Origin: Anaerolineae bacterium
GTDB lineage: Bacteria > Chloroflexota > Anaerolineae > Aggregatilineales > UBA2796
Direction of reading: 5' to 3'
Length of the DNA: 64,000 nucleotides
Assembly: GCA_019637615.1 (NCBI GenBank)
Contig: JAHBVJ010000011.1
Location: forward strand, 124,001 to 188,000
Shown here: positions 42,554-51,955 of the stretch, one piece after another
Numbering within the stretch: the stretch's first letter is position 1
Layout of the letters: each line of letters begins with the position of its first letter
Notes under the pieces: model-generated
The model's database searches: none
What the model was told of the DNA's origin: nothing
What the model saw: the letters and a program-made list of their open reading frames with translations, nothing else
Program-made: the position numbers and the translations under genes

Positions 42554-44377
42554 TCATTCAATGGGTTGATTTCCTAAAGTTGACTGAGATTCCCATCGTC
42601 GGCGCCTATTCCGATAAGTGAATTCGAGATACTCAGTGAAAATGGGTATCAGAATACGTCCATTGAGTAGCTTAAACAAAAAGATAAATCGTTTGCCAAG
42701 CGCACAATGGATAAGAGTAGCGAAATTTTTCAGTATCAATTTATAGTTGTGTCTTTGGTATAGTTTAGGCGTCACTTGAGTAACTGCATTTAGTCCATCT
42801 CTGAACGACATTTTGAGGATAAGTTGTGTTGTAAGTGAAGCAGCTGGCCAATTTTCCATTGAACAACATTCGTTAAAAAGGTCAATTATTTCTGTCACTT
42901 TTACCTCTTCTCCAATGGCGTCATGTACTGCGAGTATCGCAATTCTATTGAGATAATTATCTTCATCTGACGATTCGGAATTCTTAATAATTTGTATAGC
43001 CGTCAATGACTTAGAATTCAGGAATAATTGCATCCTATCCTCAACATCGTGAATATAGTCCATCATTTCTCCAATTGTTTCCAAATATATACGCGCTAAG
43101 CCTGCTAAATCTTGCTGACTTTGGTTTGGTTCCGCCAGTATTAGTGACGGCGCAAGGGAAGTTAAGGCTAAGCTAAAGTTACCTTCTCGCCAATAGACTA
43201 ATGCAAGCAATACTCTAACTCTTAGTTCAGTTTTATAGGGAAGAATTGCCTTCTGGAGTAGCGTCGTCAGCTGCTTTCTTGCAGATCGATATGCTGCTAT
43301 TTGGGCAAAAGACTCAGCGATATCAAGCTGCGACTCTGTTGTATTTCCCTCTTCGAGACCCCTACAATATGCCATGTGAACATGGGGCCAACTTGTATCC
43401 CACCGCATCAGAGAGAGGACAAAATCTCTCAATTCAGAACGGTTAACTGTATTAATCCATGCTTCTACGCTGTCTTCCCATGCGTGATCATAGCCCTCTA
43501 CAGAATCTTCCCAACCGTATGAAGCTGCCAGTGCCAACAACAAATTTTTCGTCTTAGCTGTGCTAGATAATCTCTCACGCAGATTGCAGAATACGTTAAG
43601 TTGAGTGGGATGAATGCGGGGAAACAAGCTACTGTGATTACACCAGAAAAACTGTGCATTTGCGTTACTCAAGTGTAGTGAAATATCCACGTCACCAGTA
43701 CCACTATAACCGACAACTAGCACATTTCGTCCATCTAGTAAGACTTGCAAATTCTGATAATTTTTCCTGAACTTTCCAATTGAAAGTTCAGGAGATATTG
43801 CTACACATGAATGTGATTCGGCGTCCCCATGTAGCTTGAATAACAAAGGTGGTTCTGACTTAGTTGGTAGGACTAATGGTGGGGTATTTTGGTCTTGGAC
43901 AGTTAAGGCAAACTCACTGCAACTCAATTCAATAGCATTGTCAAAATTTGTGGTAAGACATGCTAGACAAGTTCTCTGATGGAGTAAAAAAGCAATTGCA
44001 GCATGATTTGGTCCATATTGCTTATCAGTACATCGATAAACACGATAAAGCAAATCGTCCACACGAGGCTTATCAATTGTTTGTTGCAAACGCCAAATGA
44101 ATGACTCGAACTTAGTTCGATTTAGTAGTCCTAGGTATTTCCCATTCGTCATTGCCTTAGCATAGCTTCCCACAAGCTGTTCAGAGCGCGAACCTTTCTC
44201 CATTTTCTTCGCTAAAGCGTTGAGAATAGCTTTTTCTACGGACTGCACCATAGGCACATGTGGCGCAAGTGTAGCTGAGATGGCACTCCCACAGAGGATA
44301 ACGAATGAATCGCCAAGTTTATGTTTCAATTCCGAAACTGTTTGAATATTATCTGTTCTCTTCTTTCTAAGAAACAT
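42554..44377 (-). CDS. SIR2-domain protein with helical-repeat C-terminus (probable anti-phage NADase)
   Basis: 607 residues. SIR2 motifs are readable: GSAIS (30-34), TTNFD (142-146, with Asn144), KLHGD (181-185, catalytic-type His183) and VVGYSGTGDVD (222-231). Residues about 330-590 look like TPR or other helical repeats. SIR2 domains with this layout occur in defence proteins (ThsA, DSR and SIR2-containing relatives) that destroy NAD on phage sensing. No partner gene (TIR, Argonaute, HerA) is adjacent. The gene is AT-rich and sits alone between pyrG and a housekeeping FHA gene, so it was probably acquired. The activity itself is inferred from the motifs. Confidence 0.75.
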   Translation of the reverse strand: MFLRKKRTDNIQTVSELKHKLGDSFVILCGSAISATLAPHVPMVQSVEKAILNALAKKMEKGSRSEQLVGSYAKAMTNGKYLGLLNRTKFESFIWRLQQTIDKPRVDDLLYRVYRCTDKQYGPNHAAIAFLLHQRTCLACLTTNFDNAIELSCSEFALTVQDQNTPPLVLPTKSEPPLLFKLHGDAESHSCVAISPELSIGKFRKNYQNLQVLLDGRNVLVVGYSGTGDVDISLHLSNANAQFFWCNHSSLFPRIHPTQLNVFCNLRERLSSTAKTKNLLLALAASYGWEDSVEGYDHAWEDSVEAWINTVNRSELRDFVLSLMRWDTSWPHVHMAYCRGLEEGNTTESQLDIAESFAQIAAYRSARKQLTTLLQKAILPYKTELRVRVLLALVYWREGNFSLALTSLAPSLILAEPNQSQQDLAGLARIYLETIGEMMDYIHDVEDRMQLFLNSKSLTAIQIIKNSESSDEDNYLNRIAILAVHDAIGEEVKVTEIIDLFNECCSMENWPAASLTTQLILKMSFRDGLNAVTQVTPKLYQRHNYKLILKNFATLIHCALGKRFIFLFKLLNGRILIPIFTEYLEFTYRNRRRRWESQSTLGNQPIE

Positions 44378-44525: not shown

Positions 44526-45281
44526 TTACGAGTCGGCTTCCGTTGTCTTGGGCAAACTGACTCGGATAAGCAAGTGACTGAGGTGAATTTCGTCGCCATC
44601 GCGGAGGATGCGTTCCTCATTACGCTGCAAACGACGCCCATTCAAGTATGTGCCGTTGGTGCTGCCCAGATCAGCAACGTAGATCAATGATCCCTTACGC
44701 CGCAGCGCCATATGCCGCCGCGATACGCCGCGCTTGCCCGCGCTGAAGTCGTTCAACGAGACATCTGGTTCGCCCTCGCTGGCATCGCCGCTGCTGCGCC
44801 CGATCACCGTTACTTCTGCGACAGGCAGTGTGAGCGTTTTGCCGTCGATTTCAAAAACGATGGGATTTTGATCCATGAACAGACCGCCGCCCATCATCGA
44901 ACGACTGCGGTTGATCTGGGTCTCTTCATCAGGATGCAGCAAGCGCGTCTTCGCAACGTCCCCGAACACCATTCCACAGCGCGGACACACTTGGTCTGAC
45001 TTCTGTCGTGGTGTTTTGCAGCGTGGGCACGTAGAGATTTCCGCTGTCGTCTGAATATCCGCTTGAGGAACATCCAATTCTTGCGGTTGTGTATCGGCCT
45101 CTAGCTTATTCTGATCAAGTTTCGCCTTTACTTCAGGCGGGATATCCATCTTTAAAATCGTATCAGTCATCTTCGTCTCGTTAGTCGTTGGCTCGTGCAT
45201 AGCCCCCTCTATCTTCACATTGGGTTCTTCTTCACCGGAGGGCTGTTGTTGGCGTTGGTCATTCTCGTTCCGCTCAGTCAT
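44526..45281 (-). CDS. Zinc-ribbon and FHA-domain protein
   Basis: 251 residues. The first 75 residues are low-complexity and acidic. A double CxxC zinc ribbon follows (CPRCKTPRQ, then CPRCGMVFGD). The FHA domain at about 145-245 has the phosphothreonine-binding residues GRSS, SRRHM and the loop DLGSTNGTYLNG. FHA proteins of this form bind phosphothreonine and act in serine/threonine kinase signalling. No kinase gene is adjacent. The start at 45281 is the only long option. Confidence 0.9.
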   Translation of the reverse strand: MTERNENDQRQQQPSGEEEPNVKIEGAMHEPTTNETKMTDTILKMDIPPEVKAKLDQNKLEADTQPQELDVPQADIQTTAEISTCPRCKTPRQKSDQVCPRCGMVFGDVAKTRLLHPDEETQINRSRSMMGGGLFMDQNPIVFEIDGKTLTLPVAEVTVIGRSSGDASEGEPDVSLNDFSAGKRGVSRRHMALRRKGSLIYVADLGSTNGTYLNGRRLQRNEERILRDGDEIHLSHLLIRVSLPKTTEADS

Positions 45282-48560: not shown

Positions 48561-50543
48561 ATGCAGCGAGTCGATACGATCTTAGCGGGCGGCGTGGTAC
48601 TGACCATGAATGAGACCTTGGATGTCTTTCCGCGTGGAGCCGTCGCCGTCAAGGGGGATTCCATTGTGGCCGTGGGGCCAGCCGAGGAAATCCAGCATGA
48701 ATATACAGCCGACGAACTCATCCTGTGCGAAGGTCAAGTGATCATGCCGGGGCTGATCAATACGCATACGCATGTCCCCATGACGCTCCTGCGCGGGCTG
48801 GCGGATGACCTGCGGCTGGATGTGTGGCTGATGGGCTATGTTATGCCCACCGAAGGGCAGTTCGTGAACCCCGAATTCTGTCGGTTAGGGACGCTGTTAG
48901 CCTGCGCCGAGATGATCCGCTCTGGTGTCACCACCTTCGCTGATCTCTATTATTTCGAGTCGGATGTTGCCCAAGCCACGGCCGACGCTGGAATGCGGGC
49001 GCTGTGTGCGCAGACGGTACTCAAATTTCCGTCGCCCGATGCCCCCAGCTACGAAGATGGGCTGGCTCGCACCCGCACATTCATCCAAGCGTGGAAAGAT
49101 CATCCGCTGATCGTGCCTGCCGTCGGCCCGCACGCGCCCTATACCTGTACCGATGACATCCTCAAAGCGTGCGCGGATTTGGCGCTAGAATTCGACGTGC
49201 CGCTGCATATCCACATCGCGGAGACACGCCTAGAAGTGGACGATGCCCGCGCCGAATTTGGTATCCCTGTAGTTCCCCGCGTCGAGAAACTCGGCCTGCT
49301 CGAAACCAAGATGCTGGCGGCTCACTGCGTACACGTCGATCAAGGGGAGATTCGCAGCTTGGCGCGTCATTCCGTCGGCATCGCGCACTGCCCGACTAGC
49401 AATCTCAAGCTCGCCAGCGGGATCGCGCCTGTGGTCGAGATGCTCAAGCAGAAAGCCAATGTCGGGATCGGCACCGACGGCCCCGCCAGCAACAACGATC
49501 TGGATATGTTCGAAGAGGTGCGCTTGGCGGCGATCCTTGCCAAAGGTGCTGCACTCGATCCCGTTGTTGTGCCCGCCAAACAAGCCCTGACGATGGCGAC
49601 TCGCTTGGGTGCTGCCGCCGTCCATATGGGCGCGATCACGGGCAGTCTCGAAGCGGGCAAGCGCGCCGATCTGATCACCCTCGATCTGCGCACGCTGCAC
49701 AACACGCCAACTTTCCAGCGCGATCCCGACTCGATTTACAGTCAGGTTGTCTATGCCGCCAAGAGCACTGACGTACAAGACGTGATGGTGAACGGCAAAT
49801 GGCTGATGCGAGATCGGTCGCTATTGACCATTGACGAGAGCACGGTGATGGAACAAGCCAACGCCTTGGCGCGTGAAATCGATGCCTTCTTGATCGCCCG
49901 TGAAGGCAATGTACTCCACAAACTCATCGCGATTGGCGGTGTCCAGCGCGACGAAACCTTCGAGATTCAAGTCAAGGCACAGGTCGAATCGAAGGATATT
50001 GTCAAGCCGCTGTTTGAATCGCCGCATATTCAAGTGGTCAAACACACGCATTACCGTCAATACGATACCTACTTCATCTTTGCCGACGAGCATCAAGGGC
50101 GCATCCGTTACCGCGAAGATGATGCCCTGACCGCCGACGGTGAGGTAGAAAACGTTCGTACTCGCTTGACCTTCACGCTGCCCACCAAAGAACGCGAATT
50201 TGACGATGCCGTGATGTTGAGCCGTTCGCAGTTTATCGCGCCCGCCGCCCGCCCACTGCGTTTCTACCGTGAGTACTTCCGCCCAATAGAAGAGCGTGAA
50301 GTGCAGAAGGAGCGGCTACGCTGGCATATTCTCTATAAAGGGGTATTGTTTTATGTCAATGTGGACATCATGCAATCGCCCTTCGCGGGGCAGTTGTTCC
50401 TCGAAATCAAGAGCCAGACATGGTCTCAGCGCGACGCGGAGTATAAAGCGCATTTGGTCACCGAAATTCTAAGCATCCTCGGTCTGTCGCCAGAAAAGCG
50501 CATCCGCAAGGAGTACCTAGAATTCGTGGGAACCAATACCTGA
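48561..50543 (+). CDS. MtaD/SsnA-type amidohydrolase fused to a CYTH-like domain
   Basis: 660 residues, longer than the usual 430-450. Residues about 1-440 are a metal-dependent amidohydrolase of the MTA/SAH or adenosine deaminase type: NTHTHVPMTLLRG (His69, His71), LHIHIAETR, AHCVHVD and GTDGPASNNDLDMFEE. Residues about 455-660 read like a CYTH (triphosphate tunnel) domain: ETFEIQVKAQV (with Gln in place of the second Glu of ExExK), GRIRYREDD, GQLFLEIKSQTW and RIRKEYLEFV. The fusion is unusual. The deaminase substrate is probably MTA, SAH or a related nucleoside. The ribosome site AAAGG lies 7 bases upstream. Confidence 0.75.
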   Translation: MQRVDTILAGGVVLTMNETLDVFPRGAVAVKGDSIVAVGPAEEIQHEYTADELILCEGQVIMPGLINTHTHVPMTLLRGLADDLRLDVWLMGYVMPTEGQFVNPEFCRLGTLLACAEMIRSGVTTFADLYYFESDVAQATADAGMRALCAQTVLKFPSPDAPSYEDGLARTRTFIQAWKDHPLIVPAVGPHAPYTCTDDILKACADLALEFDVPLHIHIAETRLEVDDARAEFGIPVVPRVEKLGLLETKMLAAHCVHVDQGEIRSLARHSVGIAHCPTSNLKLASGIAPVVEMLKQKANVGIGTDGPASNNDLDMFEEVRLAAILAKGAALDPVVVPAKQALTMATRLGAAAVHMGAITGSLEAGKRADLITLDLRTLHNTPTFQRDPDSIYSQVVYAAKSTDVQDVMVNGKWLMRDRSLLTIDESTVMEQANALAREIDAFLIAREGNVLHKLIAIGGVQRDETFEIQVKAQVESKDIVKPLFESPHIQVVKHTHYRQYDTYFIFADEHQGRIRYREDDALTADGEVENVRTRLTFTLPTKEREFDDAVMLSRSQFIAPAARPLRFYREYFRPIEEREVQKERLRWHILYKGVLFYVNVDIMQSPFAGQLFLEIKSQTWSQRDAEYKAHLVTEILSILGLSPEKRIRKEYLEFVGTNT

Positions 50544-50605
50544 TTAGATGTGTCAGTAGATCAGATATAATAAGCATAATGCCATCGCACTATGGAGAGG
50601 TTCTG

Positions 50606-51247
50606 ATGAGTCAAGACGAACGCCCTGTTCTTACCTTCGCTGACGGCAAGCGCTATATCGTCCAGAAGGACGAGATTGTCGCTGGACGCGAACACGACTG
50701 CGATCTGGTGTTGGATGAGCGGCAGGTGTCGCGCCAACACATCAAGATCAAGCGTGTAGGGGAAGGGTATGTCCTAGAAGACTTGAACAGCAAAAACGGG
50801 ACATGGGTGAACGGCGAACAACTCAAAGGGGAACGCCTGTTAAAAGACGGCGACGATATTGCGGTGGCGATGGTCGTCAAAATGACCTTCAGTTCATCGG
50901 AGTCCACCGCCCCGCTGACCATTGATGCTATTCAAGCAGCGGAAGGCGGTAAGCTCCGGCTGGATCGTGATTCGCGGCGTGTGTTCGTCGCGGGTAAAGA
51001 GATTCTCCCGCCTCTCAGCCTGCCACAATACCGCTTGCTAGAACTCCTATTTGATGCCAAGGGCGCAGTTTGCACGCGTACCAATGTGATCGAAGCCGTC
51101 TGGCCCGATGCGGTCAGCGATGGCGTCAGCGAGCAGGCCATCGATGCCCTCGTGCGCCGTCTGCGCGACCGGATCGCGGAGATCGATACCGACGGACAGT
51201 ATATCATCACCGTGCGCGGTCACGGCTTCCGACTGGATCAGGGGTAA
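50606..51247 (+). CDS. FHA - winged-helix transcriptional regulator
   Basis: About 213 residues from the ATG at 50606, with GGAGAG just upstream; an ATG at 50579 is less supported. The FHA domain (about 5-95) has the phosphopeptide-binding residues AGREHDCDL, SRQHIKIKR and DLNSKNGTWVNG. The C-terminal half (about 110-213) is an OmpR/PhoB-type winged helix (LSLPQYRLLELLFDAKGAVCTR, then EQAIDALVRRLRDRI, VRGHGFRLD). No receiver domain is present, so it is probably controlled by a Ser/Thr kinase. A TATAAT at 50566-50571 may be its -10 box. Confidence 0.88.
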   Translation: MSQDERPVLTFADGKRYIVQKDEIVAGREHDCDLVLDERQVSRQHIKIKRVGEGYVLEDLNSKNGTWVNGEQLKGERLLKDGDDIAVAMVVKMTFSSSESTAPLTIDAIQAAEGGKLRLDRDSRRVFVAGKEILPPLSLPQYRLLELLFDAKGAVCTRTNVIEAVWPDAVSDGVSEQAIDALVRRLRDRIAEIDTDGQYIITVRGHGFRLDQG

Positions 51248-51277: not shown

Positions 51278-51665
51278 ATGCCTAACAAAGATACGTATCA
51301 TGATGTCGTAATCGAAGTTTTGATGGCTGGAAAATAGGGCGCGAACATGCGCTAGTAGCCACTGATACGAGGCGGTTGTTTATCGATATTTTAGCGGAAA
51401 GGTTGGCGGATCAAACACACGCCCTGTTTGAAGTGAAAGATTTTGATTCACCTGTAGAATCGCTTGCAACCGCCCTTGGGCAATATCTGCTCTATCAAAT
51501 TGCACTAGAATTTAGTAGGCTGGATTTACCACTGTTTCTCGCTGTACATCCACTGCTTATCAAGGTATTCTCAGTGAGTCGATTGGGCTACGGGCAAGAC
51601 AGTTCATAAATCCCAAGCTGATGATCTTCGAGCCAAGCACAAGGAGGGCAGTCCAATGGATATAA
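51278..51665 (+). pseudogene. xisH: xisH, frameshifted
   Basis: Three frames together make a XisH-like protein. Frame 1 gives MPNKDTYHDVVIEVL and stops. From 51322 in another frame comes DGWKIGREHALVATDTRRLF, then LAERLADQTHALFEVKDF and ALGQYLLYQIALEF. From about 51573 a third frame gives LSESIGLRARQFINPKLMIF and ends QWI. Two shifts (near 51318-51322 and 51560-51575) break it. XisH is a fdxN-element excision control factor of unclear biochemistry, common in cyanobacteria and Chloroflexi. The stop overlaps the xisI start, as in intact pairs. Confidence 0.7.
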
Positions 51666-51955
51666 AAGCGATTCTTGCGCAAGTAATACAACCATATGCA
51701 GGGGAAATGCTGAATGGGCACGCTTACTTGACGGTTAGTCCTGCTCAAGATATTTTTACGATCGTCTCGGTTGCCAAGTTCAAATCAGAGCGAGTAACAC
51801 ATCTTAGTTTGCATGTTCGCGTTGATAGAGATCACATTATTATTGAGTATGATGATAGCAACGAACCGCTTGTCGATGCCCTTGTCCACGCAGGCGTCCC
51901 TCGTTCGCAGATCATCCTTGCCTACGCAGGCGAACCCGTACCAGAGTCGATCTAA
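51656..51955 (+). CDS. xisI: XisI family protein
   Basis: 99 residues, the usual XisI length. It reads through the family pattern: YAGEMLNGHAYLTVSPAQDIFTIVSV, then RVTHLSLHVRVDRDHIIIEYDDSNEPLVDALVHAGVPRSQIILAYAGE (quoted in part). XisI acts with XisH in excision of the fdxN element, though most copies sit in no such element and their role is unclear. The start overlaps the end of the broken xisH. With xisH broken, the pair may no longer work. Confidence 0.75.
   Translation: MDIKAILAQVIQPYAGEMLNGHAYLTVSPAQDIFTIVSVAKFKSERVTHLSLHVRVDRDHIIIEYDDSNEPLVDALVHAGVPRSQIILAYAGEPVPESI

Follow-up and report, generated by a model that had tools for sequence, protein, structure and literature searches.

A Chloroflexota nucleoside deaminase fused to a divergent, predicted CYTH/TTM-fold domain with altered metal-site motifs

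The fused gene and its surroundings

The window analysed here is a stretch of 64,000 nucleotides. The gene under study runs uninterrupted from ATG through stop over 660 codons and encodes a single polypeptide, in which a linker of 25 residues joins a deaminase domain (residues 1-440) to a C-terminal tunnel domain (residues 452-655), Table 1. The full-length AlphaFold2 model has a pLDDT of 89.2 and a pTM of 0.83. Linker length is 25 or 26 residues in every one of the 113 full copies of the protein.

Three further genes in the window were noted. The gene at 42554-44377 (-) encodes 607 aa, including a SIR2-like domain (Pfam SIR2_2); its PADLOC matches to defence proteins of the SIR2 type are weak, and it is a possible defence gene. 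Adjoining it, the gene at 44526-45281 (-) has an FHA domain and a zinc-ribbon match below the Pfam cut-off. A small XisI-family protein (Pfam 1.5e-10) is encoded at 51656-51955 (+).

Table 1. Features of the fused gene, with window coordinates and the basis for each.
Feature	Position	Strand	Basis
Whole gene, fused deaminase-CYTH/TTM protein, 660 aa	48561..50543	+	ORF; AlphaFold2
TRZ/ATZ-type amidohydrolase, MTA/SAH/adenosine-deaminase-like, residues 1-440	48561..49880	+	Pfam, NCBIfam, PDB, Foldseek
H69-x-H71, metal ligands	48765..48773	+	invariant 114/114
E98, aligns with TM0936 E84	48852..48854	+	invariant 115/115
H218 and E221	49212..49223	+	invariant 115/115
H255, conserved active-site His	49323..49325	+	invariant 116/116
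D306, metal ligand/catalytic Asp	49476..49478	+	invariant 116/116
Linker region, residues 441-465, mainly helical	49881..49955	+	helices 426-448 and 451-459 (full-length model)
Predicted CYTH/TTM-fold tunnel domain, residues 452-655, eight strands and helices	49914..50525	+	AlphaFold2, Foldseek PDB
E468-x-Q470-x-K472, altered CYTH hallmark (ExExK to ExQxK)	49962..49976	+	fixed 118/118; hhalign register
R516-x-R518-E-D520, strand-3 phosphate-binding Arg pair	50106..50120	+	R516, R518, D520 invariant 119/119
K583-x-R585-x-R587, strand-6 basic residues	50307..50321	+	invariant 119/119
N600-x-D602, strand 7	50358..50366	+	invariant 119/119; D602 aligns with canonical D125
E615-x-K617, altered strand-8 ExE (metal-1 Glu kept, metal-2 Glu to Lys)	50403..50411	+	invariant 119/119; aligned with canonical EIE

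The N-terminal domain is a TRZ/ATZ-type deaminase

Residues 1-440 match Pfam Amidohydro_1 (E=6e-75), and the best PDB match by sequence is the MTA/SAH deaminase 4f0r (E=2e-99, residues 3-436). Foldseek with the deaminase model placed 3lnp, 4f0r, 4dzh and 4gbd at the top, with target TM-scores of 0.95-0.97; 4gbd is a P. aeruginosa deaminase with methylthio-coformycin. An earlier note made from this DNA sequence had read the N-terminal two thirds of the protein as an MtaD-like deaminase with metal ligands, and the matches, together with the invariance of H69, H71, H218 and D306, bear this out. Following the roles known in the amidohydrolase superfamily, we take H218 to be a metal ligand and E221 the catalytic Glu. 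E98 was paired with E84 of TM0936, presumably a ribose contact, by a 14-residue offset taken from the ends of the 1p1m match.

Two NCBIfam profiles score highly over the domain, PRK09045 with 473 bits over residues 2-441 (equivalog cut-off 540) and PRK06038 with 419 bits (cut-off 609). Among the NCBIfam profiles, no equivalog cut-off for a named MTA/SAH deaminase is reached, and the domain is therefore filed as a TRZ/ATZ deaminase with no single substrate assigned. Aminofutalosine deaminase was considered and rejected, as its profile gives 134 bits against the 473 of PRK09045.

The C-terminal domain has a predicted CYTH/TTM fold

A PDB sequence search with the C-terminal domain, run with the single sequence or with a profile, gave no CYTH match, so that a fold prediction was needed. 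AlphaFold2, with 71 aligned family members as input, modelled residues 452-655 at a pLDDT of 90.2 and a pTM of 0.87, with eight strands in TTM order, and the model of the whole protein is consistent with this. The best Foldseek match in the PDB is 2een (PH1819; E 4e-8, probability 1.00), followed by 7nsf (SaTTM, 1e-7) and 2fjt (class IV adenylate cyclase, 3e-7). Further matches include 7z67 (the Arabidopsis TTM1 kinase-TTM module), 5a64 (thiamine triphosphatase) and 5a5y (AtTTM3), and almost all of the best 50 are TTM/CYTH proteins or tunnel-fold Mediator subunits.

The window copy scores 18.6 bits against Pfam CYTH (PF01928), below the cut-off of 23.2, which several other fused members pass with 23.7-36.7 bits (the best being 36.7, 34.8, 33.8 and 33.5); a Pfam CYTH match at E<=0.01 is found in 46 of 71 relatives. 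Alignment with hhalign to five canonical CYTH proteins (E=0.0044) has a probability of just 7.9, which makes it weak proof, and it serves here to set the motif register. The model and the fold search thus agree with the earlier note, which had assigned the last 200 or so residues to CYTH, and no different C-terminal fold was seen: the domain is predicted to have the CYTH/TTM fold.

Two metal-site motifs are altered while the phosphate-binding residues are kept

The window copy reads E468-I-Q470-V-K472 at the first CYTH hallmark, as the earlier note had seen in reporting ExExK altered to ExQxK, and the change extends to every relative compared (Table 1). A second fixed change, which that note had missed, lies on strand 8, where ExE has become ExK in 119 of 119 sequences (E615-I-K617 in the window copy). 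The RxRxD of strand 3 is also invariant among canonical CYTH proteins of the class. Position 539, which corresponds to a strand-4 Lys of YgiF, varies between T, L, I and M across the fused family.

The consequence for the metal sites can be read from YgiF of E. coli, in which Glu4, Glu6 and Glu162 bind metal 2, the ion that activates the attacking water, and Glu160 binds metal 1, with Lys69 assisting in the orientation of Glu4; the Glu6 to Ala mutant is impaired (PMC4641920). By alignment, Glu4, Glu6, Glu162, Glu160 and Lys69 correspond to E468, Q470, K617, E615 and position 539. One of the three metal-2 carboxylates remains (E468), a Lys stands in place of another, and the orienting Lys is absent. 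More widely, the second Glu of ExE is required for metal 2 in triphosphatases and ThTPases, and the metal-1 Glu is said to be conserved throughout the family (PMC8233210).

With a mean divergence of about 49%, 20 positions in the tunnel domain never change. Sixteen of these carry charged or amide side chains, mostly in i,i+2 pairs on strands, which places them on one face. Such a pattern fits a tunnel under strong selection for a ligand and not one in decay.

Signatures of particular CYTH/TTM families were also looked for. The class IV adenylate cyclase motif is absent, as neither the window copy nor the family consensus has HF before E468 and strand 8 carries ExK, not ExA. The W/YxRxR of ThTPases is likewise absent from the consensus, position 514 being Arg in 111 of 119 sequences, W in two and Y in one. 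The Pfam scans gave no VTC match, and the domain list of the protein contains no SPX or membrane domains. ExExK and ExE were both tested and neither was found, so the C-terminal domain is classed with a divergent CYTH/TTM-fold subfamily and not with the canonical CYTH enzymes.

The fusion is widespread in Chloroflexota and arose once

Chloroflexota was the phylum searched in depth. The fusion is conserved in Anaerolineae: the domain is present in 182 of the 298 genomes drawn from the class (121 of the 189 of good quality), and almost every match listed in this draw lies within an open reading frame roughly 650-840 codons long. No stop between the two domains was seen in any relative examined. 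A profile search of a draw from the whole phylum was positive in 89 of 400 genomes, including families beyond the class. The GTDB-wide scan confirmed at least 502 stretches, the best 80 of which are nearly all labelled Anaerolineae or Chloroflexi.

Two loci with cyanobacterial labels, a Pleurocapsa minor MAG (L058) and an uncultured cyanobacterium (L060), carry the Chloroflexota fused gene. L058 is probably mislabelled, since its length and match identity equal those of L011, which comes from the window's own order.

No free-standing tunnel domain occurs among the 129 loci with rebuilt frames, where the few short ones end at a contig edge. When 33 fused and 15 unfused deaminases from the phylum were placed in one tree, all the fused sequences clustered together (support 100/99); the divergence of the two domains runs in step (r=0.85, Mantel p=0.001). 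A close unfused orthologue was not found in the tested genomes that lack the domain, whose best deaminases are at most 46% identical. The nearest unfused deaminase (L185) is 45% identical and stops 16 residues past position 440; matches in plasmid records of other bacteria also stop at about residue 440, and no plasmids carrying the C-terminal domain were found. The fusion arose once, is ancient and is not a local accident. Its distribution, single origin and fixed linker rule out an assembly artefact or a recent chance joining.

Phosphorylase genes recur next to the fused gene

In an unselected draw of 60 genomes, 39 carry the gene, and at least nine of these have, among the matches listed, a PNP/MTAP-family gene within about 3 kb, where we estimate that chance would give fewer than one such neighbour at about three PNP/MTAP genes per 4-Mb genome. 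Eight of the nine are MTA phosphorylase genes, most of them convergent with the fused gene at a distance of no more than 300 bases. Four of these MTA phosphorylase neighbours were scanned; every one exceeds the TIGR01694 cut-off, and one also exceeds that for methylthioinosine phosphorylase. The ninth is a purine-nucleoside phosphorylase gene, upstream on the same strand. Purine-nucleoside phosphorylase lies directly downstream on the same strand in three further lineages (L104, equal to L026; L106; L093), and pyrimidine-nucleoside phosphorylase (DeoA) adjoins the gene in four loci. The window copy has no phosphorylase neighbour.

Mere presence of PNP/MTAP-family genes says little, as they occur in all but one of the 60 genomes, and the co-occurrence of SAH hydrolase is uninformative for the same reason (57 of 60). 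The recurrent adjacency of MTA, purine- and pyrimidine-nucleoside phosphorylases supports a role in nucleoside salvage. In P. aeruginosa, MTA is deaminated first and phosphorolysis follows, and M. jannaschii has a promiscuous deaminase/phosphorylase pair for which 5'-deoxyadenosine is also a substrate (PMC6302742).

Comparison with known systems

The N-terminal domain shares its fold, metal ligands and catalytic residues with the MTA/SAH deaminases 4f0r, 4gbd and TM0936 (1p1m), at about 35-42% identity over its whole length; a phosphorylase partner gene is likewise part of the deaminase-then-phosphorylase route of P. aeruginosa (PMC6302742). Deaminases of the 4f0r/4gbd/1p1m type, however, end where the fused protein continues.

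With SaTTM (7nsf), PH1819 (2een), YgiF, AtTTM3 and ThTPase, the C-terminal domain has in common the eight-stranded tunnel, the strand-3 RxR, the basic strand 6, the strand-7 Asp and the strand-8 metal-1 Glu. It is just 10-17% or so identical to the solved CYTH/TTM structures and differs from these proteins in its ExQxK and ExK, in the missing strand-4 Lys and in its position C-terminal to an amidohydrolase.

Two known groups depart from the canonical motifs in a similar way. Arabidopsis TTM1 and TTM2 (7z67) also have a fused CYTH domain, a partner named for nucleoside or sugar metabolism, and neither ExExK nor ExE, and AtTTM2 is reported to be a pyrophosphatase (PMC8233210). Their partner is, however, phosphoribulokinase/uridine-kinase-like, they occur in plants and amoebae, and they keep the W/YxRxR that the fused family has lost. 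Vtc4 is an active polyphosphate polymerase despite having no acidic patch (PMC4641920, PMC9911596). The VTC proteins resemble the fused family in that the acidic patch is replaced while RxR and the metal-1 Glu are kept; they differ in being eukaryotic polyP polymerases with SPX and membrane domains, whereas the fused family keeps E468, has Gln at the next acidic position and gives no match to the VTC profile.

CYTH is known in fusions with HD hydrolase, exopolyphosphatase, nucleotidyl kinase, CHAD and phosphoribulokinase (PMC8233210). The present protein is like CYTH-CHAD (YgiF), CYTH-HD and CYTH-exopolyphosphatase in placing CYTH within a multidomain protein of phosphate metabolism; its partner is a nucleoside deaminase, and no amidohydrolase is among the CYTH fusions in that paper (PMC8233210). 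We found no published account of an amidohydrolase-CYTH architecture in the literature searched, in line with the earlier note, whose author knew of no such fused enzyme. The fusion itself and the salvage role that the note proposed for its first domain are supported by the structure prediction, the conservation and the gene neighbours.

A putative sensor for nucleoside salvage

We propose a purine-nucleoside deaminase of the MTA/SAH/5'-deoxyadenosine type with a CYTH/TTM-fold sensor permanently attached to it, and give this reading an even chance. From its fold, active site and neighbours, the N-terminal domain would deaminate MTA or a related 5'-modified adenosine, and the inosine product would then be split by the phosphorylase often encoded next door. 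The tunnel would bind a ligand containing tri- or polyphosphate (ATP, PPPi or similar) through R516, R518, K583, R585, R587 and K472, and, as its residues suggest, one metal on E615 may help to hold it. The usual second, catalytic metal site would be unable to form, since Gln470 and Lys617 stand where two of its carboxylates would be, and the ligand would then be held, not hydrolysed by the usual route. Binding may adjust the attached deaminase so that salvage or purine turnover tracks cellular nucleotide or phosphate status; this regulatory role we infer from the permanent fusion and the fixed linker.

Since two of the three metal-2 carboxylates are lost and the site-1 Glu and phosphate-binding Arg and Lys residues are invariant, the domain is probably a ligand-binding tunnel without ordinary triphosphatase chemistry. 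Together, ExQxK and ExK speak for a tunnel that binds or regulates and against one that works as an ordinary triphosphatase or polyphosphatase. Loss of metal 2 is no proof of lost catalysis, however, as the polymerase Vtc4 and the reported pyrophosphatase AtTTM2 illustrate.

Because those tunnels can act although the standard acidic patch is missing, a bifunctional enzyme is the strongest rival. In it the tunnel would remain catalytic with altered chemistry (pyrophosphatase, nucleotide phosphohydrolase or phosphotransferase), and its substrate would be metabolically connected with what the deaminase produces. The invariance of all the tunnel residues, E468, K472 and E615 included, speaks for this rival as well, the fixed linker and co-conservation would fit it too, and Gln is still able to ligate a metal. 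We nevertheless consider it unlikely, although a serious contender, given the loss of two metal-2 carboxylates, the variable residue in place of the YgiF-type orienting Lys, and the description of catalysis in TTMs and ThTPases as needing metal site 2 (PMC8233210).

A second alternative is that a dead barrel merely stabilises or tethers the deaminase as a structural or oligomerisation module. Med18 and Med20 of Mediator, which are among the Foldseek matches, offer a parallel, catalysis having apparently been lost from their tunnel fold (PMC4641920). A scaffold of this kind would not be expected to keep 16 invariant charged or amide residues, mostly paired on one strand face, at the divergence seen here, and we regard it as distinctly improbable. 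An ordinary CYTH triphosphatase or adenylate cyclase, chance-joined to the deaminase and retaining its standard reaction, would account for the overall fold and the phosphate-binding Arg residues; with ExExK and ExE changed in every sequence and a consensus that has neither the HF of cyclases nor the W/YxRxR of ThTPases, it is very hard to sustain. That the C-terminal domain is something other than CYTH, or the fusion an artefact of assembly, could draw on the window copy's score under the Pfam cut-off and has next to no probability, with relatives over that cut-off, a fold search that is unambiguous and rules out the former reading, and the fusion present in hundreds of genomes.

The tunnel is thus most likely a triphosphate or nucleotide sensor for the deaminase, its ligand, activity and allostery being inferred. 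The fixed replacement in the metal site suggests that a phosphate compound may control salvage instead of being cut by the barrel, and the putative link between nucleoside salvage and phosphate signalling is plausible. More tentatively, and with some doubt on our part, the family may be an undescribed tunnel-fold subfamily in which Lys replaces metal 2, a former triphosphatase turned dedicated nucleotide or polyphosphate receptor, with allosteric control over the deamination of purine nucleosides in Chloroflexota.

The CYTH/TTM superfamily has long been suspected to stand at the junction of nucleotide and phosphate metabolism, and we know of no established physiological role for most of its members. 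Here, in hundreds of Chloroflexota genomes, a tunnel whose metal site has a fixed new design is permanently joined to an easily assayed enzyme, so that what a tunnel domain senses becomes directly testable. The family would also add an example of a tunnel fold departing from two-metal chemistry outside VTC, AtTTM1/2 and Mediator.

Other genes adjoining the fusion

In the window, a regulator with FHA and winged-helix (Trans_reg_C) domains is encoded at 50579-51247 (+), starting 35 bases past the fused gene, and in seven near relatives (L035 and L037-L042) the fused gene is followed directly, on its own strand, by a gene of the same cluster. In families outside the class (L136, L137, L138, L140, L142, L146 and L152), the next gene looks like dephospho-CoA kinase (coaE), a label read from the gene sequence; it often overlaps the fused gene by a few bases, pointing to a possible operon.
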